A DNA stretch of 41,322 bases from a virus. The position numbers and the translations under genes are program-made. Shown in pieces: positions 3,786 to 27,142 of the stretch. Every line of letters begins with the position of its first letter. Positions within the stretch are counted from its first letter, which is position 1. Where the stretch lies: the IMG/VR virus record IMGVR_UViG_3300024259_000007, positions 1 through 41,322 of that record; one strand, given 5' to 3'. The notes beneath the pieces are model-generated. The model was given only the letters and a program-made list of their open reading frames with translations, was not told the origin of the DNA and did no database searches.

Positions 3786-4133
3786 ATGAAAAAATTAACA
3801 TTAAAGGAATTGGCAATAAAACATGATTATTATTGTAGTGATAATAATTATTATAGTAATGAAGCAAGAGTAAGTTATGAAACTTTTTCCGACTTCTATG
3901 AAGAGTTTCATGATGCTGATGTAGATATGAATTTAATATTTAGATGGGATTTGAGAGAACGTGAAGAAAGTAAAAGGCATTATTTAGAATTATTTATGAT
4001 GAATCAACGAAAAGGTATATTTAGACCTATATATATAGCACTATTTGATGAAAAAGATATTGACTTATTTGTTAAATATTTACAGCCACATATTGAAAAA
4101 TTAAAAACTATTTGGAAACCATTTAACTTTTAA
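3786..4133 (+). CDS. Conserved hypothetical phage protein (115 aa)
   Basis: 115 residues, Tyr/Asp/Glu-rich. The central part (DMNLIFRWDL, then LELFMMNQRKGIF) and the C-terminal part (DLFVKYLQPHIEKLKTIW) look like a small alpha/beta domain that I recognise as recurring in Bacteroidota phage early regions, without known function. Soluble, no metal-binding or catalytic signature. Confidence 0.65.
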   Translation: MKKLTLKELAIKHDYYCSDNNYYSNEARVSYETFSDFYEEFHDADVDMNLIFRWDLREREESKRHYLELFMMNQRKGIFRPIYIALFDEKDIDLFVKYLQPHIEKLKTIWKPFNF

Positions 4134-4163
4134 AATATTCTTAAAATCAAGTAATTTATAACG

Positions 4164-4191
4164 ATTCTTAACAAAATAATACTTAAATTTA
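4164..4191 (+). promoter_or_regulatory. Early promoter, copy 1 of a repeated promoter motif
   Basis: ATTCTTAACAAAAT (4164-4177) and TAAATTTA (4184-4191) recur with the same 20-base phasing at 11906-11933. The -7-like box lies 5 bases before the ATG at 4196, implying a very short or leaderless mRNA. Confidence 0.5.
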
Positions 4192-4195
4192 CACT

Positions 4196-4387
4196 ATGAA
4201 AAACAGATATATTGTAACAATGGAGTTTTACATGTTTGCCGAAAACAACGAAATGGCAATTGAAAAAGCTGAGAGATTAGCAAAAAAGCAGAGGCAAAAA
4301 AAAGACAACCAAGCTAAGATTTCTTTAATTCAGAAGCATGATTTTGGTTCTTTAAGTTGCGTAGAAATATTTAAACCGATTTATTAA
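4196..4387 (+). CDS. Hypothetical small basic protein (63 aa)
   Basis: 63 residues: a beta strand (YIVTMEFYMFAE), a Lys/Gln/Glu-rich helix (EMAIEKAERLAKKQRQKK), then another strand pair ending in VEIFKPIY. This is a ferredoxin-like beta-alpha-beta pattern seen in many small phage proteins. It precedes the recombination genes and may be co-transcribed with them. Confidence 0.55.
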   Translation: MKNRYIVTMEFYMFAENNEMAIEKAERLAKKQRQKKDNQAKISLIQKHDFGSLSCVEIFKPIY

Positions 4388-4403
4388 CATAAAATTTACA
4401 GAT

Positions 4404-4931
4404 ATGGAAATTTACAAAAAATTAGCTGCATTCCAAAATGAATGCCCAGTAATTCACAAAGGCACTCAAGGATTTAATTATACCTATGCTGATTTACCTT
4501 CAATATTAGAAATTGTAAATCCAATATTAAAAAAGCATAATTTAGGATTTACGCAACCTTTAGACGGTGAAAATTTAAAAACAATTTTGTTTGATATTGA
4601 AACCGGAGAAACAATTGAAAGTACCGTACATATTCAACAAAACGTACAACTTGCAAAAATGAATGTTTTCCAAGTATTAGGTTCTGCAATTACTTATTAC
4701 CGCAGATATTCGTTAAGTGCTTTATTGGGTATTGTAACAGATAAAGATACAGACGCAGCGGGTAAACCGGAGAAAAAAAGTATTAAACTACCAGAATTAC
4801 TACCGACAAATAAAGCCAATTGGTTAAAAGTAAAACAAGCCTTAAATAACGGTTTTACGATAGATCAGGTAAAAACAAAATGGAGGCTTTCAAAAGAAAA
4901 TCAGGAAATTTTAATAAGTGAAGCGGTATGA
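4404..4931 (+). CDS. erf: ERF-family single-strand annealing recombinase
   Basis: 175 residues. The ERF superfamily core is visible: NYTYADLPSIL near 25-34, an NxGFTQPL-type strand near 46-54, and GSAITYYRRYSLSALLGI at 93-110 followed by the acidic TDKDTDA. ERF proteins anneal complementary single strands during phage recombination and can help circularise or concatenate the genome. Overlap of 4 bases (ATGA) with the following exonuclease gene makes a classic recombinase-exonuclease pair. The C-terminal ~45 residues are a helical tail (TNKANWLKVKQAL...) that may bind partners. Confidence 0.9.
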   Translation: MEIYKKLAAFQNECPVIHKGTQGFNYTYADLPSILEIVNPILKKHNLGFTQPLDGENLKTILFDIETGETIESTVHIQQNVQLAKMNVFQVLGSAITYYRRYSLSALLGIVTDKDTDAAGKPEKKSIKLPELLPTNKANWLKVKQALNNGFTIDQVKTKWRLSKENQEILISEAV

Positions 4932-5701
4932 AGGATTTCAAAATAAGGTGTTCGGCAATTAGTCAAATAATGGGTGATCTTGTTGGTATTACAGATATTC
5001 AATTAAAAGAATTAGACACCCTTCAATCTAAAGAAAAACGAACCGAAAAACAGCAAGAAAAACTAAACTTGTTAATAACAAAAAAAGATACACCAACTGA
5101 ATTATCTGCAGGTGGAAAAACTCATTGTGAAAATTGGTACAAAGAACAATTATACAGCCGTAAAAAGGAATTCTCAAGTAAAATGACAGATAAAGGAATG
5201 ATAATGGAAGATGAAGCAATTGATTTTGTCGCTGATCACCTTAATTTGGGAATGCTTTTAAAGAACGAAAAACATTTTTCAAATGAATATATGAAAGGTA
5301 CACCAGACGTTATTTTACCGAAATTAGTTATTGATACCAAATGTAGTTGGGATTGCTTTACGTTTCCATTGTTTGAAACAAAGATTAATCCAATATATTA
5401 CTGGCAGGGTCAGGGATATATGGAATTAACAAACCGTGATAACTTTAAATTGATTTATGTTTTATTAGACACTCCCGCACATTTAATAAAAAGTGAAGCT
5501 TGGTATTTTGTGAAAAATAACGGATATGATGAACTTGACGAAGAAATGTATCAAAGATTTGTTGATAAAATGACTTATCCCAATATTTCTAAACGTTTAA
5601 AAATTAAAATTTACAGTTTTGCTCGGAATAATGATGACATTGCAAAAATCAAGACTCAAGTTGAAAAATGCAGAAAATATTTAAAAACAATTAAGATATG
5701 A
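4928..5701 (+). CDS. YqaJ/RecE-like PD-(D/E)XK exonuclease
   Basis: 257 residues. The nuclease core has GTPD (D127) followed by IDTK (D136, K138), the PD-(D/E)XK signature, with an upstream helix carrying acidic residues (MIMEDEAIDFV) and the downstream YYWQGQGYMELT stretch typical of the lambda-exo/YqaJ clan. The expected activity is 5'-3' resection of double-strand ends, giving ssDNA for the ERF protein encoded immediately upstream. The N-terminal ~70 residues contain a Lys/Glu-rich helical insert. Start overlaps the ERF stop. Confidence 0.87.
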   Translation: MKDFKIRCSAISQIMGDLVGITDIQLKELDTLQSKEKRTEKQQEKLNLLITKKDTPTELSAGGKTHCENWYKEQLYSRKKEFSSKMTDKGMIMEDEAIDFVADHLNLGMLLKNEKHFSNEYMKGTPDVILPKLVIDTKCSWDCFTFPLFETKINPIYYWQGQGYMELTNRDNFKLIYVLLDTPAHLIKSEAWYFVKNNGYDELDEEMYQRFVDKMTYPNISKRLKIKIYSFARNNDDIAKIKTQVEKCRKYLKTIKI

Positions 5702-8077: not shown

Positions 8078-8097
8078 TTTAATTGAAAATAAATAGA

Positions 8098-8973
8098 ATG
8101 AAAAAAGATAATTTATTTGTATCAGTATCTGGTGGAGAAACATCATGGTATATGGCTAATCTTATAAAAGAAAAATTAAGTAACAAATATAATCTCCTTT
8201 TTGGATTTGCAAATACAGGGAAAGAAAGGAAAGAAACGTTTGATTTTAATATCAGATGTTCAGAATATTTTGAAATTGATTTGCATTGGATCGAAGCAAT
8301 TGTTCATTATAATAAAAGAAAAGGATGTACTCATAAAATAGTAAATCAAACTAATTATTCAAAAAATGGAGAACCATTTGAAGACGTAATAAAAAAATAT
8401 GGATTACCTAATGTTGCTTTCCCTCATTGCACCAGAGAATTAAAATCAAACCCATTAAGATCATTTGCAAAAGAATATTTTAACGGAGAGAAATTTAAAA
8501 TAGCGATTGGCATACGTGTAGATGAAATTGATAGGGTTAGTAATAATAAAAATTATTTATACCCACTTGTTTCGCTATTCCCGACCATGAAAACCGAAAT
8601 TAATAAATTCTGGAAATTAATGCCGTTTAGGCTTGAATTAAAGTCTTATGAAGGCAATTGTGATTTGTGTTTTAAAAAAACATTAAGAAAGTTATTAACA
8701 GTAATATCAGAAAAAAAATGTAATATTGATTGGTGGAAAGAAATAGAGAAAAAATATGAATATTATAGTGCAAATAGAGATAATTCAAAAGTTCCATTTA
8801 GATTTAATAGAAAAAATATATCGGTTCAAGAATTAATAAACATGAGTTATCCTTATTTTGAAAAGGCTATTGATGAAAAAACAAATTACGGTAGTAGATA
8901 TAAACAATCTGAATTATTTAATTTAAATCTTGATGTTACAAACGGATGTATAGAGAGCTGTGAACCCTTTTAA
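8098..8973 (+). CDS. PP-loop ATPase, PAPS reductase-like (adenine nucleotide alpha-hydrolase superfamily)
   Basis: 291 residues. The PP-loop is SVSGGETSW (residues 9-17), binding the ATP pyrophosphate. FANTGKERKETFDF at about 43-56 is the second conserved segment of the PAPS reductase/sulfotransferase-like family, FPHCTRELK a third, and EGNCDLCFKK (C188, C191) a CxxC element seen in phage members. The family activates substrates by adenylation in sulfur transfer, sulfate reduction or nucleic-acid thiolation. In phages its role is unresolved; DndC, which makes phosphorothioate DNA, is a distant relative, but no other dnd gene is here. ATG 8098 is preferred over an upstream TTG at 8083. Confidence 0.8.
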   Translation: MKKDNLFVSVSGGETSWYMANLIKEKLSNKYNLLFGFANTGKERKETFDFNIRCSEYFEIDLHWIEAIVHYNKRKGCTHKIVNQTNYSKNGEPFEDVIKKYGLPNVAFPHCTRELKSNPLRSFAKEYFNGEKFKIAIGIRVDEIDRVSNNKNYLYPLVSLFPTMKTEINKFWKLMPFRLELKSYEGNCDLCFKKTLRKLLTVISEKKCNIDWWKEIEKKYEYYSANRDNSKVPFRFNRKNISVQELINMSYPYFEKAIDEKTNYGSRYKQSELFNLNLDVTNGCIESCEPF

Positions 8974-18071: not shown

Positions 18072-18649
18072 TGGAAACCGAAAAGAAATACACTAAAAAA
18101 GAGTTAAAAAAACTACTCACCGAGAAACAAATAATATTTTGTCACCAAATTATAATAGACTGGAACGCAACAAGATCATATCAATTCGCATATCCAGATT
18201 CAAGTTATAATGCAGCAAGGTCAAGTAGTGCCGATCTCCTAACAAATCCTAACATATTGCAATACATTGATTTAATCAAAGATGACATAGAAAAAGAATC
18301 AGGTATAACCAAACTAAGAAACTTAAAAGAACTTGCAAAAATAGCATACTCAACAATCGCACATTTACATAATACTTGGATAGAATTAAAAGAGTTTGAA
18401 TCATTAACAGATGACCAAAAGTCATCTATTGAATCAATAGAAACAAAAGTTTTAAAAAAGAATGTAGTCATAAATGGAAAACCCGAAACAATAAATATTG
18501 AATTTATTAAGATTAAATTATATTCCAAAGTGCCTTCAATTGCAGAAATAAGCAAAATGTTAGGACATTATGAACCAGAAAAACACGAACACGAAATTGA
18601 TGATAAACGTATTTCAAAAGTAACAGTAAACAGACCAGATGGGAGTTGA
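18071..18649 (+). CDS. terS: Terminase small subunit
   Basis: 192 residues. The N-terminal domain (LTEKQIIFCHQIIIDWNATRSYQFAYPDSSYNAARSSSADLL) is the helix-turn-helix region of Terminase_2/XtmA-type small subunits, which recognise the packaging site. A central coiled oligomerisation helix and an acidic tail follow. It overlaps the large subunit gene by 11 bases, the usual order. No cos or pac site can be identified from the sequence alone. Confidence 0.85.
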   Translation: METEKKYTKKELKKLLTEKQIIFCHQIIIDWNATRSYQFAYPDSSYNAARSSSADLLTNPNILQYIDLIKDDIEKESGITKLRNLKELAKIAYSTIAHLHNTWIELKEFESLTDDQKSSIESIETKVLKKNVVINGKPETINIEFIKIKLYSKVPSIAEISKMLGHYEPEKHEHEIDDKRISKVTVNRPDGS

Positions 18650-19874
18650 GTTAGATGTTGGTAAAAATTATGATGAACTTGATTTAAATTTTGATTGGGA
18701 AAAATCAAAGAAACAAATCAAGCAAATCTTTATCCTTGAAGGTGGTGGCGGTAGTGGTAAAACATGGGATATACTGCAATTTATAATAACATATTGTGAC
18801 AATTATTTTAATTGGAATAAAGACATATTAATTGCACGTGATACTTATGCAGAATGTAAGAAAACCGTGATGAAGGATTTTTTTAAAATTCTTAAAAGAC
18901 ACGGAATATACAAAAAAAAGAATCATAAAGAATCACACCCGCAATCATATAATTTATATGGAAATGATATATTTTTTAGTGGATTAGATAGTGAAGGAGC
19001 ACATGGCGAAAGACATGATTTTGTTTATATTAATGAAATATTAGGTACTGATTGGAATGATATAAAGCAAATTAATCAAAGATGTAATGAAGTTTTAATA
19101 GGAGATTACAATCCGGCTTATACAGAACATTGGGTTTTTGATAAATTAATTCCAAGACCTGACTGTATTTATATTCATTCAACACAATTGAACAATCCAT
19201 TTTTACCCGAAGGGCAAAGGCAAGAAATATTAGCATACGAACCAACTACAATAAATATAGATAATGGAACAGCAGATGAGTTTATGTGGAAGGTTTATGG
19301 GCTTGGTATTCGTGCTGCTATGCTTGGGCTTATATTTCAGCATGTAACCTATATTGATGAATTTCCTAAAGGAATAGCTTATGATTACGGAATGGACTTT
19401 GGTTTTACAGTTGATCCGTTAGTTATAACAAAATGTGGAGAGGACACTAATAATATATGGCTTGAATGTTTATGTTATGAACCAATTGAGACACCTCAAG
19501 AAATTCACGAATACGCATTAGCAAAAGGAATAAACATTAAGTTGAGTACAACGGCAGACAGTTCAGATAAACACGTAAGTCAAACAAAGGGAAGTATCGA
19601 AATGGTAAAAGGACTTAGGGATTTAGGTTGGAATATTCATAAAGTCAGTAAAACAATGGGTGTGATGTTTTGGTTACTTTCAATGAAAAAAAAGAAAATT
19701 CACATAGTTAAAAATGAGTTTTATTTACAAGTAAAAAAAGAACAGGAAAATTATCATTTAAAAGAAATCAATGGAATAGCAATTAATCAGCCGGTTGATA
19801 AATGGAATCATTTTTGGGATTCTGCAAGGTATAGGCATATGGCATTTAATAAACCTAAATCAAAAATATATTAG
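18639..19874 (+). CDS. terL: Terminase large subunit
   Basis: 411 residues. Walker A is GGGGSGKT at 35-42, the Walker B-like strand FVYINE is at 128-133, and the RNase H-like nuclease domain starts around YDYGMDFGF (D253), with a later acidic cluster (TTADSSDKH). It packages DNA into the prohead and cuts it. The GGSGKT loop and the size match PBSX/Terminase_3-like enzymes. The first acidic residue of the usual Walker B DE pair is Asn here (N132-E133). Confidence 0.92.
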   Translation: MGVELDVGKNYDELDLNFDWEKSKKQIKQIFILEGGGGSGKTWDILQFIITYCDNYFNWNKDILIARDTYAECKKTVMKDFFKILKRHGIYKKKNHKESHPQSYNLYGNDIFFSGLDSEGAHGERHDFVYINEILGTDWNDIKQINQRCNEVLIGDYNPAYTEHWVFDKLIPRPDCIYIHSTQLNNPFLPEGQRQEILAYEPTTINIDNGTADEFMWKVYGLGIRAAMLGLIFQHVTYIDEFPKGIAYDYGMDFGFTVDPLVITKCGEDTNNIWLECLCYEPIETPQEIHEYALAKGINIKLSTTADSSDKHVSQTKGSIEMVKGLRDLGWNIHKVSKTMGVMFWLLSMKKKKIHIVKNEFYLQVKKEQENYHLKEINGIAINQPVDKWNHFWDSARYRHMAFNKPKSKIY

Positions 19875-20814: not shown

Positions 20815-20925
20815 ATGAAACTACTCTGGACTGGAAGTGATGTATTATTTGCAACGAAATTTCTTATTATTAGAGCAAAGAGAATCCTAATATTTATGAT
20901 ATATTGCGTGAAATTAAAAAACTAA
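20815..20925 (+). CDS. Possible tiny hydrophobic protein (36 aa)
   Basis: An ATG after AGGAGAT (20809-20815) opens a 36-residue frame with a hydrophobic, basic C-terminal half (FLIIRAKRILIFMIYCVKLKN). The Shine-Dalgarno-like AGGAG is unusual in this genome. Nothing else supports it, so it may be chance. Confidence 0.3.
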   Translation: MKLLWTGSDVLFATKFLIIRAKRILIFMIYCVKLKN

Positions 20926-20940
20926 TTAAAAACTAAAATT

Positions 20941-21138
20941 ATGAAAGAAATGACAAAAATTAAAAAAGTATTGGCAATATTTTTTATTGTATTATTTATT
21001 GGAATTGCCATAGCATTTATTATATTTTTATTTATTATTGATACAAAGCTTATGCTTATTCTGTTTGGTGTATTTGGAGGTATAACATTTTTTGTATGGG
21101 GTAGTATTATTATTGAAGAATATTTAGGAATAAAATAA
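20941..21138 (+). CDS. Two-segment membrane protein (65 aa)
   Basis: 65 residues: basic N-terminus (KEMTKIKK) and two hydrophobic stretches at about 10-33 and 37-57, separated by DTK. Holin-like in size, but far from the lysis genes and beside a glycosyltransferase cassette. It may be an accessory membrane protein, for example for superinfection exclusion. Confidence 0.55.
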   Translation: MKEMTKIKKVLAIFFIVLFIGIAIAFIIFLFIIDTKLMLILFGVFGGITFFVWGSIIIEEYLGIK

Positions 21139-21146
21139 TTTAAGTT

Positions 21147-21536
21147 ATGAAATTCCATTACAGAAAGCACAAGATAAGATTTGACAGAGGACGTATGTGG
21201 TACGCTGCATTAGCACCGATTATAACGGCTGTATTAGTAACGCTGTTTATTTCCGATACTTCTTTTATTGGAAAGGTTTTATATGCCTTCGGGGTATTTC
21301 TTCTGATATACATCTTTGGTTATATTGATGATAAAATGAAGCTATTAGACCGAGAGCAAAACGAATATTGTAAGCGAAATCCTTTTTTAGAAGAAATGGC
21401 AAAGGATATTAGGGAAATAAAAAAGAGAACACCGTTAAATGAGAGATGTAGTCAATGTGGATCGAAATTAGGTGAAATAAAAAACAATTCTCGGCTTTGT
21501 TCTTATTGCGGGCATTATGAAAAATTAGGAAATTAA
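21147..21536 (+). CDS. Membrane protein with C-terminal zinc ribbon
   Basis: 129 residues. Two transmembrane segments lie at about 18-35 and 42-60, then a cytoplasmic helix, and a C-terminal zinc ribbon with two CxxC pairs (RCSQCGSKLG... and LCSYCGHYEK). The combination suggests a membrane-tethered sensor or adaptor. It belongs to the accessory block between terminase and portal. Confidence 0.6.
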   Translation: MKFHYRKHKIRFDRGRMWYAALAPIITAVLVTLFISDTSFIGKVLYAFGVFLLIYIFGYIDDKMKLLDREQNEYCKRNPFLEEMAKDIREIKKRTPLNERCSQCGSKLGEIKNNSRLCSYCGHYEKLGN

Positions 21537-21569: not shown

Positions 21570-21770
21570 ATGAATTGGAAACTATTAAAGAATAAATATC
21601 CTCAAATATGGGATGAAGTATATAACGGAGTAATATTTGATTTAAAAGAATGTATGCCAAGAGCAGATGTTATACTTTATGAAGAAAACTATAAATATAA
21701 TAAATTGAAAAGAATAGCTCATAATGCAGCATTTTTAGCATGCATTGCGGTTCATAAATATAAAAAATGA
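21570..21770 (+). CDS. Hypothetical protein (66 aa)
   Basis: 66 residues, helical and Lys/Tyr-rich (WKLLKNKYPQIWDEVYNGVI). Overlaps the next gene by 4 bases (ATGA). No family recognised. Confidence 0.55.
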   Translation: MNWKLLKNKYPQIWDEVYNGVIFDLKECMPRADVILYEENYKYNKLKRIAHNAAFLACIAVHKYKK

Positions 21771-21961
21771 AAGTATGTAAAAACTGTAAGAACTGGAATA
21801 AATTAAAAATATTTCCAGATGAAGGTGTTTGTATTAAATTAAAAAAACATATATCCTTTGCCTTTACAAATTATGGGGACGCAAATACAATCTATACAAA
21901 AGAAGATTTCGGGTGTAAATTATTTGAGAAAATATCTAATAATATAACAGAATCAATATGA
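21767..21961 (+). CDS. Small CxxC zinc-binding protein (64 aa)
   Basis: 64 residues. CKNCKNW at the start and GVCIKLKK plus FGCKLFE later give four cysteines arranged like a small zinc-binding fold frequently seen in phages. It overlaps the glycosyltransferase start by 4 bases, so it is co-translated with the cassette. Confidence 0.6.
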   Translation: MKVCKNCKNWNKLKIFPDEGVCIKLKKHISFAFTNYGDANTIYTKEDFGCKLFEKISNNITESI

Positions 21962-22749
21962 AAGTATCTGTAATAATAACAACTTACAACCAAGCCGACA
22001 CGATAGAGCGTGCAATTAACAGCGTATTATTTCAGCAGTTTGAGGACTTTGAAATAATAATAATAAATGATGGATCGACAGACCGGACAAAAAGGATATC
22101 AAACCAATATCAATGTCAGTTAAATACAACGGTATTTAATTTGCATAAAGTCGGAATGATGAAAGCTTATTATTTAGGTTTTGAAAGCTGCAAAGGTGAT
22201 TATATTTGTTTATGTGATGGTGACGATTACTGGACTGATATTTATAAACTACAAAAGCAATTCGATTACATGGAAGTTAATCAGGATTGCGGGCTTTGCA
22301 TAACAAAAGTTCATACAAAGTCAGGAGACGTTAATTATCCAATGACAGTTGACGTAGATCATATAAATAAAAATATGTCATTTGATAGTCTATTACTTGG
22401 AAACGCATATATTCATGCACAATCTTATATGATTAGAAAGTCAGTATTTGACAAATATATAGACTTTAGAAAGTTTTTACATTTTTACACTTGGGACTAT
22501 CCAATAGTTTTGGAGTTAATTCGACATACAAGATTTCATTGCTTAAATTTTCATTCGGCTATCTTTGTAAAGAGTTTTGAAAGCGTTACACAGACACGAA
22601 GCCGGATAAAAAGATTAAAACGTGTTTATGGGCAGTATCGAATTAAGTTATATTTTATACTAAAATATGGCTGCAAACCCACAACAATCTTGAGATTAAT
22701 TTATTTAGCAATACGAGCAATTTATTCAATAATATTTAAAAGATGGTAA
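21958..22749 (+). CDS. Family 2 glycosyltransferase (GT-A)
   Basis: 263 residues. VSVIITTYNQADTIERAINS at 3-22 and IINDGSTDRT near 36-45 are the GT2 nucleotide-sugar binding signatures; DGDDYW at 87-92 is the DxD metal-binding motif. The C-terminal ~60 residues are basic and hydrophobic, suggesting membrane association. It transfers a sugar from a nucleotide-sugar to an unknown acceptor: surface polysaccharide, DNA base or virion protein. It is followed by a methyltransferase and a radical SAM protein, forming a cassette. Confidence 0.9.
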   Translation: MKVSVIITTYNQADTIERAINSVLFQQFEDFEIIIINDGSTDRTKRISNQYQCQLNTTVFNLHKVGMMKAYYLGFESCKGDYICLCDGDDYWTDIYKLQKQFDYMEVNQDCGLCITKVHTKSGDVNYPMTVDVDHINKNMSFDSLLLGNAYIHAQSYMIRKSVFDKYIDFRKFLHFYTWDYPIVLELIRHTRFHCLNFHSAIFVKSFESVTQTRSRIKRLKRVYGQYRIKLYFILKYGCKPTTILRLIYLAIRAIYSIIFKRW

Positions 22750-23075
22750 CAATTAAAGGGGAAAATTATAAAGAGAGATGTAATAACCAGCTTAATGAGT
22801 GGGTAAAAGGAAACTCTATACACAATGAAAAAGACAATGAGTGTTGTCCTGACTTTAGTTGTTGTAAAAAAGATTGCTTACAACCGAAAGAAGTTAGAGA
22901 AACATTTTCAATGGTTTTTAAAAAAGCATCAGAAGAAACATTTAATCCAAATTACCATCCATACGAAGATAAAAAAATGGAAATGCTTATGTGTTTCTTG
23001 GGTGGTGCATTTTCTGATAAAAAGAATGTTTATGTAACAGATGGTAATACAAATTATAAAAAAGATTTAAATTAA
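22743..23075 (+). CDS. Cys-rich small protein in modification cassette (110 aa)
   Basis: 110 residues with a cysteine cluster (NECCPDFSCCKKDCLQP at about 32-48) that may bind metal. The end of the protein includes MLMCFLGGAFSDKK. The cysteine segment resembles small proteins of other phages with the CCPDFSCC pattern. It overlaps the glycosyltransferase by 7 bases. Function unknown. Confidence 0.6.
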   Translation: MVTIKGENYKERCNNQLNEWVKGNSIHNEKDNECCPDFSCCKKDCLQPKEVRETFSMVFKKASEETFNPNYHPYEDKKMEMLMCFLGGAFSDKKNVYVTDGNTNYKKDLN

Positions 23076-23089
23076 TATAAATAGGAACA

Positions 23090-23698
23090 ATGGACAAAAT
23101 AAGAAAACCAGGATACGAAACCACTAAACAATTATGGTCTCCAAATCCTAAACACTTGCAGAAATTTGTAGATAAAAAGATAATTCCTTTTCTTAATGTG
23201 AAGCGTGGAGCTTTTTGTTTTGATATGGGCGAAAGAAATCCACGAATGGACTATATTAAAGAGAGGTTAGACTTAGATGTTTTGCAATTCGATAACAATG
23301 ATTTTAATTTTGATATGTCAGATACAATTGAAAAAGCTGATGTAGTATTTGCCTTTGAAGTCATTGAACACCTACAAAATCCTTTATGGTTTATGCGTGA
23401 ACTAAAGAAGCTAACAGACGGATCAATTTACGTTATTATTCCATGCAATCCAAGATGGTTATGGCATGAAATGCACTTCTTTGAAATGAACCGAAAACAC
23501 TTTGAAAAATGGATATTGAAACCGTTAGACTTGGAGATAGTCAGGTATAAAAAGATTAATTTTGTAGCAAGTTGGAAAACTTACTTAATAGGACTAAGAC
23601 CTTTGATTAAGTTACTCACAGGCAAAACAACGTTTAAGAATTTTATAAGATCATTGTTTTACGTTCAATATGGAATTTATGAAATACGAAAAGTTTAA
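23090..23698 (+). CDS. SAM-dependent methyltransferase (class I, UbiG/Methyltransf_11-like)
   Basis: 202 residues. An N-terminal region with CFDMGERNPRMDY replaces the usual GxGxG motif I; ADVVFAFEVIEHLQNPLWFM is the well-known motif IV/V segment of small-molecule methyltransferases, followed by LTDGSIYVIIPCNPRWLW. The loss of canonical glycines in motif I is odd. The C-terminus is basic and hydrophobic. The substrate is probably the sugar or lipid product of the neighbouring enzymes. The gene end overlaps the radical SAM gene by 29 bases. Confidence 0.8.
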   Translation: MDKIRKPGYETTKQLWSPNPKHLQKFVDKKIIPFLNVKRGAFCFDMGERNPRMDYIKERLDLDVLQFDNNDFNFDMSDTIEKADVVFAFEVIEHLQNPLWFMRELKKLTDGSIYVIIPCNPRWLWHEMHFFEMNRKHFEKWILKPLDLEIVRYKKINFVASWKTYLIGLRPLIKLLTGKTTFKNFIRSLFYVQYGIYEIRKV

Positions 23699-24539
23699 AC
23701 TATTTATTTACAGAATCGCAAACGGCTTTTCATTATTACCGTTTCAGTTTACTATTAACATATCGAATATTTGCAATCGAAAATGTAAGTTTTGCCCGAA
23801 CTGGGCTTCGGAACTGGAAGATAGTTATTATTTGCAATGGTTTAAAAAGCAACCTGACTTAATGAACGTTTGTGAATTTGCTGACTTTATGAAGCGTATG
23901 GGAATACTAAGAATGTTTATGAGACAAATTTCAATAACTGGCAGAGGTGACCCAACGTCACACCCCGACCTATTAAAGTTTTGCCAAATAGCAAATAAAT
24001 ATAAAAAGAAGTTTACGATTACAACCAATGGGGATAAATTAACTCCGGAGTTTTTCCACGAACTAAGTAAATTAAAATACTGTGATTATGTTCGGGTATC
24101 ATTATTTGATGTTGATAAGGCTAAATATTGGTTAAAGCTCCAAGATGAAAACAACGTCAAGATAGATTTTATGAATGAAACCGGCGTTCATCTTGACGGT
24201 TATGAAGATGGTTACATTTCAACCAACAATCCTGGAACGGCTAAATATTCAACTATGCCGCTTGACTTTGTTGAAGAAAAGTATTGCAGAGCTCCATTTT
24301 CATTTAATACTTTGAATACTGATGGTACACTCGTAACTTGTATTACTTTCTTTGAGGTCGGCAACGTATTTGAAAAACCTTTTTGGAAAGTATGGAATGG
24401 TAAAAAAATGAGATTAATCAGGAAGCAGGCTCTTAAAATGGCAATACCGAAACATCTTGCTGACTGTCTTAACTGCGGATATTTTACAAGGTTACCGAAA
24501 TACAGGGCTATGAATAACTATAAAAACCATAAAAAATAA
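23670..24539 (+). CDS. Radical SAM protein with SPASM-like C-terminus
   Basis: 289 residues. CNRKCKFC (C35, C39, C42) is the CxxxCxxC 4Fe-4S/SAM motif; ISITGRGDPTSHPDLL is the following GGEP-like strand and FTITTNGD a further barrel strand. The C-terminal part (YCRAPFSFN, LVTCITFFEVGNVFEKPFWKVW, then ADCLNC) has the cysteine layout of a SPASM domain that holds auxiliary clusters. Such enzymes modify peptides, sugars or other substrates. The second in-frame ATG at 23679 is an alternative start. Coupled with GT2 and methyltransferase genes. Confidence 0.87.
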   Translation: MEFMKYEKFKLFIYRIANGFSLLPFQFTINISNICNRKCKFCPNWASELEDSYYLQWFKKQPDLMNVCEFADFMKRMGILRMFMRQISITGRGDPTSHPDLLKFCQIANKYKKKFTITTNGDKLTPEFFHELSKLKYCDYVRVSLFDVDKAKYWLKLQDENNVKIDFMNETGVHLDGYEDGYISTNNPGTAKYSTMPLDFVEEKYCRAPFSFNTLNTDGTLVTCITFFEVGNVFEKPFWKVWNGKKMRLIRKQALKMAIPKHLADCLNCGYFTRLPKYRAMNNYKNHKK

Positions 24540-25528: not shown

Positions 25529-27142
25529 ATGATATTTGAAGACTTATCGGAAATACTGAAAATAATTAAATCCGGTCGCCCTGATTGGTTTGAATTAGCT
25601 GAAAAAGAACATTTACGGCTAAACGTTCATATTAACGGAATTGGTACATCTTATTATCTTAAAAAGATTGATTCGATTGAGAATGACGAGCAATTAAGTT
25701 TAAGAAAGAAATACCTTACAACAAACCGTTACCTGTTTACAAACCTAATTAGACCAATAGATAAGGTCTTTTCTGCTAAAGGTGGCAATAGGATAATTCC
25801 AGAGAAATCAAAAGACACTATTAGTAAGCTTACAAATCTAACAAGTGGGCTACCAATTAGAAAGTGGATTGAAAATATTCAGTCAAATAAATATTATACC
25901 GATCCTGCGGGTATTGTATTCATTGAACATAAAGACTACAATCCTTATCCTACCTTAAAATCAATTAAGTCAATATTCAACTATGGGCAAAATGGTAGAT
26001 TATTAGAATGGATTATATTCAAACCATTTAAAATAGATGATCGAAAAGGTGACTTTTATCGAGTTGTAGATGATGAAAAGGATATAATTGTCAACGTTGT
26101 AGATGATAGTAATATCATAGAAGTAGAAGAACTAAACGGCGAAAAGCAAAGTTTTGAAAATCCATTTGGTAAAGTCCCTGCAATTTTAAATAGTGACAAG
26201 ATAAATTCACAGCTTTTATATATGGAAAGTCCTTTTGAGGATGTTATATCTTTGGCTGACCATTATTTAAGGACAGGAACTATTAAGAATTTGAATGAAT
26301 TTTTACATGGATTTCCTATATTTTGGCGGTATTTAACAGATTGCAAGGAGTGTAAAGGAACTGGATTTATTGACGGTAAAAAATGCGATTCATGTAACGG
26401 TAGGGGTAAATCCTTAAACAAAGATATTACTGATATTATCCAAGTTGAGAAACCTGAAGTCGATGAAGCTGTAATTACTCCTAACGTTGCTGGTTGGGTT
26501 GTCCCTCCGGTTGAAAGTTGGCGGGAAATGCGGGTTGAAATGGATTGGATTAATGACTTAATGCAGTTAACTACGTGGGGTTCTAAGATGGCAAAAGACG
26601 CCACAAACGAAACGGCAACCTCAGCATTTTTAAATATCCAGCCAGTTAATGAACGATTAAACAACTTTTCAGATACATACGAAAACTTAGAAAACCATAT
26701 TATTGAATTTCTGTCTATATTTTACAACGAAAAAAAAGGAGTTTCAAGTTATGGCAGAAGGTACTTAATTGAATTGCCTGATGTTATTTGGAAAAAATAC
26801 CAAGAAGCACGGGAAAAGGGAGTTGCAAAAGCTCTTTTAAATTATCTACTTCGTCAGTATTTCCAGACAGAATATGCCAACGATATTGAAAGCATGATGG
26901 TTGCTGAAAATAGCATGAAGTATGAACCATTTATTCATAAGACAGATGAAGAGGTTTTGGCTATGCCTATATTGGAATATGATAAATTTAGGAAAATATA
27001 TTTTAATGAATTTTATATAAAATATAAACCGTCAGAGATATTAGAATTAACACAAGATAAATTCAACAAACAATTTGATAAATTTTTAGAAAAAAAACAT
27101 AAACAATTTAAAAACGAAAACGATGGACAAGAAACACAGTGA
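25529..27142 (+). CDS. Portal protein with internal DnaJ-type zinc motif
   Basis: 537 residues, right size and position (after terminase, before scaffold and capsid) for a portal, the dodecameric ring through which DNA enters the head. Typical stretches include LRPIDKVFSAKGG-like clip/stem regions and LTTWGSKMAKDATNETATSAF in the C-terminal half. A zinc-binding insert CKECKGTGF...KKCDSCNGRGK (C272, C275, C286, C289) has the DnaJ CxxCxGxG repeat pattern. The 3' end overlaps the next gene by 20 bases. Confidence 0.8.
   Translation: MIFEDLSEILKIIKSGRPDWFELAEKEHLRLNVHINGIGTSYYLKKIDSIENDEQLSLRKKYLTTNRYLFTNLIRPIDKVFSAKGGNRIIPEKSKDTISKLTNLTSGLPIRKWIENIQSNKYYTDPAGIVFIEHKDYNPYPTLKSIKSIFNYGQNGRLLEWIIFKPFKIDDRKGDFYRVVDDEKDIIVNVVDDSNIIEVEELNGEKQSFENPFGKVPAILNSDKINSQLLYMESPFEDVISLADHYLRTGTIKNLNEFLHGFPIFWRYLTDCKECKGTGFIDGKKCDSCNGRGKSLNKDITDIIQVEKPEVDEAVITPNVAGWVVPPVESWREMRVEMDWINDLMQLTTWGSKMAKDATNETATSAFLNIQPVNERLNNFSDTYENLENHIIEFLSIFYNEKKGVSSYGRRYLIELPDVIWKKYQEAREKGVAKALLNYLLRQYFQTEYANDIESMMVAENSMKYEPFIHKTDEEVLAMPILEYDKFRKIYFNEFYIKYKPSEILELTQDKFNKQFDKFLEKKHKQFKNENDGQETQ

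Follow-up and report, generated by a model that had tools for sequence, protein, structure and literature searches.

The window, by which we mean the whole stretch of DNA analysed, is a 41.3-kb virus record. The genes for the large terminase subunit (terL) and the portal protein are separated in it by approximately 5.65 kb of small genes, which include a GT2-family glycosyltransferase (GT2), a predicted class I SAM methyltransferase (MT) and a radical SAM enzyme (rSAM). These three are intact open reading frames (ORFs) and lie between terL and portal at the positions given by a first-pass annotation of the sequence, which is confirmed in this respect. The features of the locus are as follows.

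18639–19874, + strand: terL, the left flank of the insertion (PF04466, E=3.9e-12)
20815–20938, + strand: vestige of a short GT-B (GT4-like) glycosyltransferase gene (from tblastn and translation)
20941–21138, + strand: small ORF of 65 aa with two hydrophobic segments
21147–21536, + strand: small membrane protein with two predicted TM segments (two-TM protein), which accompanies GT2 in relatives
21767–21961, + strand: Cys ORF of 64 aa, the stop of which overlaps the GT2 start (ATGA)
21958–22749, + strand: GT2 (PF00535, E=5.9e-28), with DGDD, a hydrophobic C-terminal segment and a KRW end
22743–23075, + strand: Cys ORF of 110 aa between GT2 and MT
23090–23698, + strand: MT, class I by predicted fold, with the unusual conserved motif I DMGERNP
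23679–24539, + strand: rSAM, a BtrN-like radical SAM/twitch-domain enzyme with CxxxCxxC, C206-x17-C224 and C266-x2-C269 (289-aa numbering from 23670)
25529–27142, + strand: portal protein, the right flank (phrog_7376, E=3.5e-44)

The rSAM probably starts at 23679 (MKYE...), in which case it overlaps the MT gene by 20 nt, exactly as it does in the related L004/L049. The base composition of the cassette is unremarkable, with no foreign signature in a composition check. An internal promoter for the cassette was considered and rejected, as no Bacteroidota-type motif lies just upstream and those nearby fall within coding sequence. The position of the cassette in the late-gene block suggests late expression. 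Elsewhere, the window carries a phosphoadenosine phosphosulfate reductase-like gene (8083–8973; PHROG 424, E=7e-37). Neither an integrase nor a repressor was recognized among the ORFs scanned, so that lysogenic conversion is unsupported.

In named phages with a related portal, terL adjoins the portal gene and there is no cassette at this site. The portal gene lies within about 100 bp after terL in Polaribacter phage P12002L and Rhodobacteraceae phage LS06-2018-MD05, in agreement with the earlier premise that the two genes are normally contiguous. In another relative (L003; portal 44%, MCP 60%) the gap is filled by about 2.1 kb of other ORFs. The adjacency in the two named phages and the different content in L003 show that the site is variable. 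The cargo of the L003 gap (3806–5591) includes an ORF that reads like a metallophosphoesterase (4749–5591).

The named relatives of the portal include Polaribacter and Bacteroides phages, the two best being a Rhodobacteraceae and a Pseudanabaena phage. Ribosome-binding motifs precede ORFs at chance level (5 of 47; random 4.3), and their scarcity is expected in Bacteroidota. Together with an MT family that is common in a sample of Bacteroidota genomes (see below), these observations make a Bacteroidota host likely.

Identity of the three enzymes

The GT2 contains a family-2 domain with a DXD-type motif; the DGDD reported originally is found at residues 87–90 and is invariant across the four cassette GT2s. 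Polysaccharide glycosyltransferases are its best-scoring matches (TuaG and EpsE among the best), and the N-terminal part gives GtrB-like PHROG matches (best E=1.4e-11). Its C-terminal segment means that the protein is probably membrane-associated.

The MT has a weak Pfam match, below the curated cut-offs (Methyltransf_23/31, E about 4e-4). The best Foldseek matches of its AlphaFold model (pTM 0.70) are class I SAM methyltransferases (E about 1e-6). In place of the canonical glycine-rich motif I, which is absent, the sequence reads DMGERNP or DIGEYNP, and bacterial members of the family deviate similarly. The predicted fold outweighs this deviation, and by that fold the protein is a putative class I SAM methyltransferase. 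The class assigned in the first-pass annotation thus stands, but not its description of motif I as degenerate, the motif being unusual and yet conserved across the family. A decayed enzyme was considered and rejected for the same reason.

The rSAM matches PF04055 (E=6.7e-15) and PF13186 (E=1e-8). The CxxxCxxC motif is invariant in the four cassette rSAMs, as are four further cysteines (C206-x12-G-x4-C224 and C266-x2-C269). The latter form the AuxI pattern (C-x12-G-x4-C ... C-x2-C) of a single auxiliary cluster, the twitch cluster being defined as CX9-15GX4C ... CX2C (PMC6231123). A full SPASM domain has two auxiliary clusters and seven cysteines, including CX5CX3C-gap-C, and this arrangement is absent, there being no cysteine past C269. 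The original call of a radical SAM protein is upheld, whereas the ‘SPASM-like cysteines’ prove to be the four of AuxI only, and the enzyme is of the twitch type. Only about 20 residues precede its core, too few for a recognition domain.

In a search of PDB sequences, a profile built from the four phage rSAMs and four distant bacterial ones scores best against BtrN (E=8e-21), and the four auxiliary cysteines fall on those of BtrN in the alignment; the four phage proteins alone do not reach BtrN. BtrN (4m7t) is also the best Foldseek match (E=3.6e-9) of the rSAM model (pTM 0.71, mean pLDDT 67). The reaction of BtrN is the oxidation of an aminocyclitol alcohol (PMC9012708). Within the SPASM/twitch subfamily function is hard to predict from sequence (PMC6231123), and any reaction given below for the rSAM is for this reason put conditionally.

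Viral and bacterial relatives of the cassette

A search of IMG/VR found GT2, MT and rSAM, identically ordered, in three virus lineages besides that of the window, represented by one contig (L002/L004/L007/L049), two near-identical contigs (L005/L006) and L008. Identities to the window in the L004-type, L006 and L008 are 84, 72 and 67% for the rSAM, 71, 66 and 68% for the MT, and 61, 58 and 54% for the GT2. The four lineages, window included, come from IMG/VR and genome scans that rely on short exact patterns and miss distant relatives, and several of the contigs end within or beside the cassette. The MT is absent from the isolate phages of the collection, and the closest rSAM among isolate phages is only about 27% identical. 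A lack of correlation among the three genes in relatives had been named at the outset as an argument against a functional set. The opposite was found, as MT and rSAM were found only together and always with this GT2. The GT2 also occurs without them.

The backbones that carry the triad differ. The terL of L004 is 23% identical to that of the window, and the window terL does not match the terL of L006 and L008, which is a different one. The cassette directly follows terL in L006. In L008 a few extra genes follow terL before the cassette and then a portal-like ORF, and there are in addition an SGNH hydrolase and a weak YfhO-like fragment. In L004/L049 the cassette lies upstream of the terminase genes. 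Its recurrence elsewhere, on unrelated backbones, and its absence at this site in portal relatives support the view that it is an inserted accessory biosynthetic block.

All between-lineage comparisons of the cassette give pN/pS values of 0.13–0.44, with pS near saturation in many pairs. These values, well below 1, show that GT2, MT and rSAM are under purifying selection. With the gene order repeated in three other lineages, they also argue that the triad is not due to chance. Between L006 and L008 the pN of terL is 0.018 and that of the cassette genes 0.14–0.20 (pS 0.43 versus 0.58–0.66). The higher divergence of the cassette indicates a history different from that of the neighbouring terL, and a conserved terL beside a diverged cassette suggests allelic exchange. 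Separately, the L005, L063 and L068 contigs end within the cassette or the two-TM gene, possibly because the locus varies in the population.

The gene set is wider than was first described, its core consisting of a short GT-B gene, the two-TM protein and GT2. In L051/L052 these three are present, and MT and rSAM are absent. The GT2 of L051 is 57% identical to that of the window and the GT2 of L054 43%; in L053–L056 the GT2 (43%) is followed by the two-TM protein 1.4 kb downstream. The two-TM protein adjoins GT2 in L049 and L051, and in L006/L008 the rSAM is followed by a split GT-B and a possible two-TM relative (E=0.004 in L006). The window retains only the two ends of GT-B (20815–20938), the middle being missing. 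The first ~17 codons (MKLLWTGSDVLFATKF) were found by tblastn with the L049 GT-B as query (13/17 identical at 20815–20865, E=0.002), and the last ~23 codons (SKENPNIYDILREIKKLIKN) lie in another frame, the match having been read from the translation.

Damage to GT-B takes other forms in other contigs. In L051 (6519–7094) and L063 there is a TGA near the start where the intact gene of a close relative, L068, has TGG. In L006 (3906–4524) and L008 (8125–8743) the gene is divided between two frames, which overlap by 47 nt in both contigs. A GT-B broken in several lineages and a cassette more diverged than terL are what changing selection on a trait would be expected to produce.

The two Cys ORFs, which the first-pass annotation had counted as members of the set, adjoin the cassette genes in the window only. 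They are missing from the cassettes of relatives and do not belong to the set. The one at 22743 occupies the exact place where GT2 and MT overlap in L049, and its N-terminal part matches a Rhizobium phage sequence.

Among 395 Bacteroidota genomes the MT has matches in 165 (E≤1e-3) and the rSAM in one (E≤1e-8); a scan of genome contigs found only two distant relatives of the rSAM. A glycosyltransferase gene lies beside the MT in all 20 bacterial loci fetched. Seventeen of these share a GT4-GT2-MT-GT4-flippase-YfhO-like cluster, in which the gene that we take to be YfhO-like gave no Pfam match; L034 has the MT beside a GT4 and a flippase, and L045 and L046 have a GT2 only. The rSAM context is drawn from two loci, a third relative (L010) being left out. 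L009 lies among genes for NeuB, UDP-GlcNAc 2-epimerase, GT11 and a DegT aminotransferase, and L058 among those for NeuB, nucleotide-sugar enzymes, a GT2 and an acyltransferase.

These host relatives of the cassette enzymes are distant (about 22–32% identical), and the phage GT2 profile does not match the GT2s of the 17 clusters at E≤1e-3. The bacterial loci are therefore taken as context and not as orthology. Close homology to an ordinary host operon with a known product, which had been raised as a counter-argument, is not seen at such identities, although the loci that contain the relatives are ordinary ones for surface polysaccharides. Transfer of an operon directly from a host was also considered; it is rejected, as the host MT and rSAM are distant and the rSAM has a single match in 395 genomes.

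Proposed role of the cassette

It seems somewhat probable that the cassette is a phage-borne, horizontally exchanged set of genes that remodels the envelope glycan of the host. This reading draws on the gene set, its conservation and selection, its different backbones, the likeness of the rSAM to BtrN, and the polysaccharide-locus context. Among the roles suggested earlier, namely host-surface remodelling, virion decoration and DNA hypermodification, it is the best supported, given the genomic surroundings of the relatives in bacteria, the partner gene for a membrane protein and the likeness of the rSAM to BtrN.

The mechanism that we infer, from membrane association and acceptor to reaction order and benefit, would run as follows. 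The GT2 and the two-TM protein, originally also with the short GT-B, would transfer a sugar to an envelope glycan, lipid-linked or still being assembled, which may be the O-antigen, capsule or lipooligosaccharide of a Bacteroidota host. The rSAM could then oxidise or otherwise modify a sugar carbon that bears a hydroxyl, and the MT may cap a hydroxyl, amine or carboxyl of the sugar so modified. An altered surface would remove or mask the phage receptor, leading to less superinfection and less re-adsorption of progeny to debris.

Alternatively, the modified glycan made by these enzymes might be attached to a capsid or tail protein, where it could shield the particle or alter adsorption. Glycosylated capsids and tail tubes have been described in mycobacteriophages, and the action of phage glycosyltransferases on virions is established (Freeman 2023, as cited in PMC10877033 and PMC12619734). 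The structural module of a Cellulophaga siphophage likewise contains a glycosyltransferase (PMC11946311), and the cassette lies within the packaging/structural block, where terL and portal flank it in the window and L008 and where it comes immediately behind terL in L006. This late position is not decisive for either envelope or virion, and suits virion decoration as well or better. However, the bacterial relatives lie in envelope-polysaccharide clusters, a small membrane protein goes with the GT2, and the L004/L049 cassette is upstream of the terminase genes. As phages with unrelated terminases have the cassette in common, a shared virion acceptor is also less natural, and virion glycosylation, which ranks second among the readings, appears rather unlikely. 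The genes might also be no more than cargo, carried passively or belonging to an unrelated metabolism, as with host exopolysaccharide genes that bring the phage no benefit. This would fit the broken GT-B and the other cargo (about 2.1 kb in L003) in the terL–portal gaps of relatives. It is improbable with three enzymes intact in four lineages at pN/pS of about 0.13–0.44.

Phage glycosyltransferases can also put diverse glycans on DNA (Pyle 2024, as cited in PMC12619734), and a DNA methyltransferase is encoded elsewhere in the phage (14089–15480). The suggestion that the cassette modifies and glycosylates nucleobases against restriction is nevertheless highly improbable; the relatives of GT2, MT and rSAM point to glycans rather than nucleobases. 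No pyrimidine hydroxymethylase, base kinase or similar gene was recognized to support it among the ORFs scanned, which cover the small ORFs in part, in a record that may be incomplete. Maturation of a peptide (RiPP), with the Cys ORFs as precursors modified by rSAM, glycosyltransferase and MT, might be proposed since SPASM/twitch enzymes mature peptides (PMC6231123) and in the window each Cys ORF overlaps an enzyme gene or lies next to one. Such precursors are not conserved, with GT2 and MT overlapping directly in L049 and one Cys ORF matching Rhizobium phage sequence. Nor does the rSAM have the N-terminal extension of a recognition domain or full SPASM cysteines, and a role in peptide maturation is hardly credible.

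Returning to envelope-glycan remodelling, a more specific form of it can be offered tentatively. The cassette would be a serotype-conversion-type module with radical chemistry, in which a BtrN-type dehydrogenase and the MT make an unusual host or virion sugar, and the MT–rSAM pair is a supplement exchanged between unrelated phages with a glycosyltransferase core in common.

Comparison with known systems

Most of what is known about phage genes that rewrite the host surface comes from a small number of temperate enterobacterial and Pseudomonas phages, in which transferases and acetylases are used. To our knowledge, no phage receptor-modification system with a radical SAM enzyme has been described. 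A literature search for cassettes of glycosyltransferase and radical SAM genes likewise found no described system, only pooled marine-virus gene lists (PMC7150976). What is new here is the enzymes, the general idea of surface-glycan change by phages being already known. If the proposal is correct, a conserved set on unrelated backbones, with Bacteroidota-type hosts, would extend surface rewriting to radical-mediated sugar editing, and would provide a concrete candidate for unusual sugar chemistry in phage–host conflict. In mycobacteriophage virion glycosylation we know of no radical SAM enzyme or MT. That system likewise uses phage-encoded glycosyltransferases to make a glycan of benefit to the phage (Freeman 2023, as cited in PMC10877033).

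The serotype-conversion systems gtrABC of P22 and oac of D3 (PMC11436027) similarly comprise a phage-borne glycosyltransferase set with a small membrane protein, as is proposed here for altering the host surface glycan. The gtrABC system consists of a GtrA flippase, a GtrB bactoprenol glycosyltransferase and a variable GtrC. The cassette differs in that the two-TM protein has no GtrA match, the GT2 is weakly GtrB-like and no GtrC-like protein was recognized. It also has the additional MT and rSAM and a site in the packaging/structural block, with no lysogeny genes recognized.

The ‘BtrN protein’ cluster of Campylobacter phages CP20 and CPt10 is another phage-borne run of biosynthetic-looking genes with a BtrN-like rSAM (27% identity). 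There, in contrast, the BtrN-like gene accompanies three other radical SAM genes and an amidinotransferase, with no adjoining glycosyltransferase or MT recognized. In the CP20 record (L062, 72823–85476) these four radical SAM genes and the amidinotransferase constitute an unexplained biosynthetic cluster.

In polysaccharide clusters of Bacteroidota (such as L028 and L031) a GT2 gene adjoins that of an MT which belongs to the phage MT family and shares its unusual motif I. This MT is only about 30% identical to that of the phage, and the stretches examined contain no radical SAM match. BtrN itself, the 2-deoxy-scyllo-inosamine dehydrogenase of butirosin biosynthesis, shares with the phage enzyme the radical SAM core, the twitch domain and four auxiliary cysteines in the same pattern. 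The identity is low (19% in the Foldseek alignment), and a BtrN-type reaction in the phage is suggested by sequence and model. The phage enzyme lies in a glycan cassette, whereas BtrN belongs to an antibiotic cluster.
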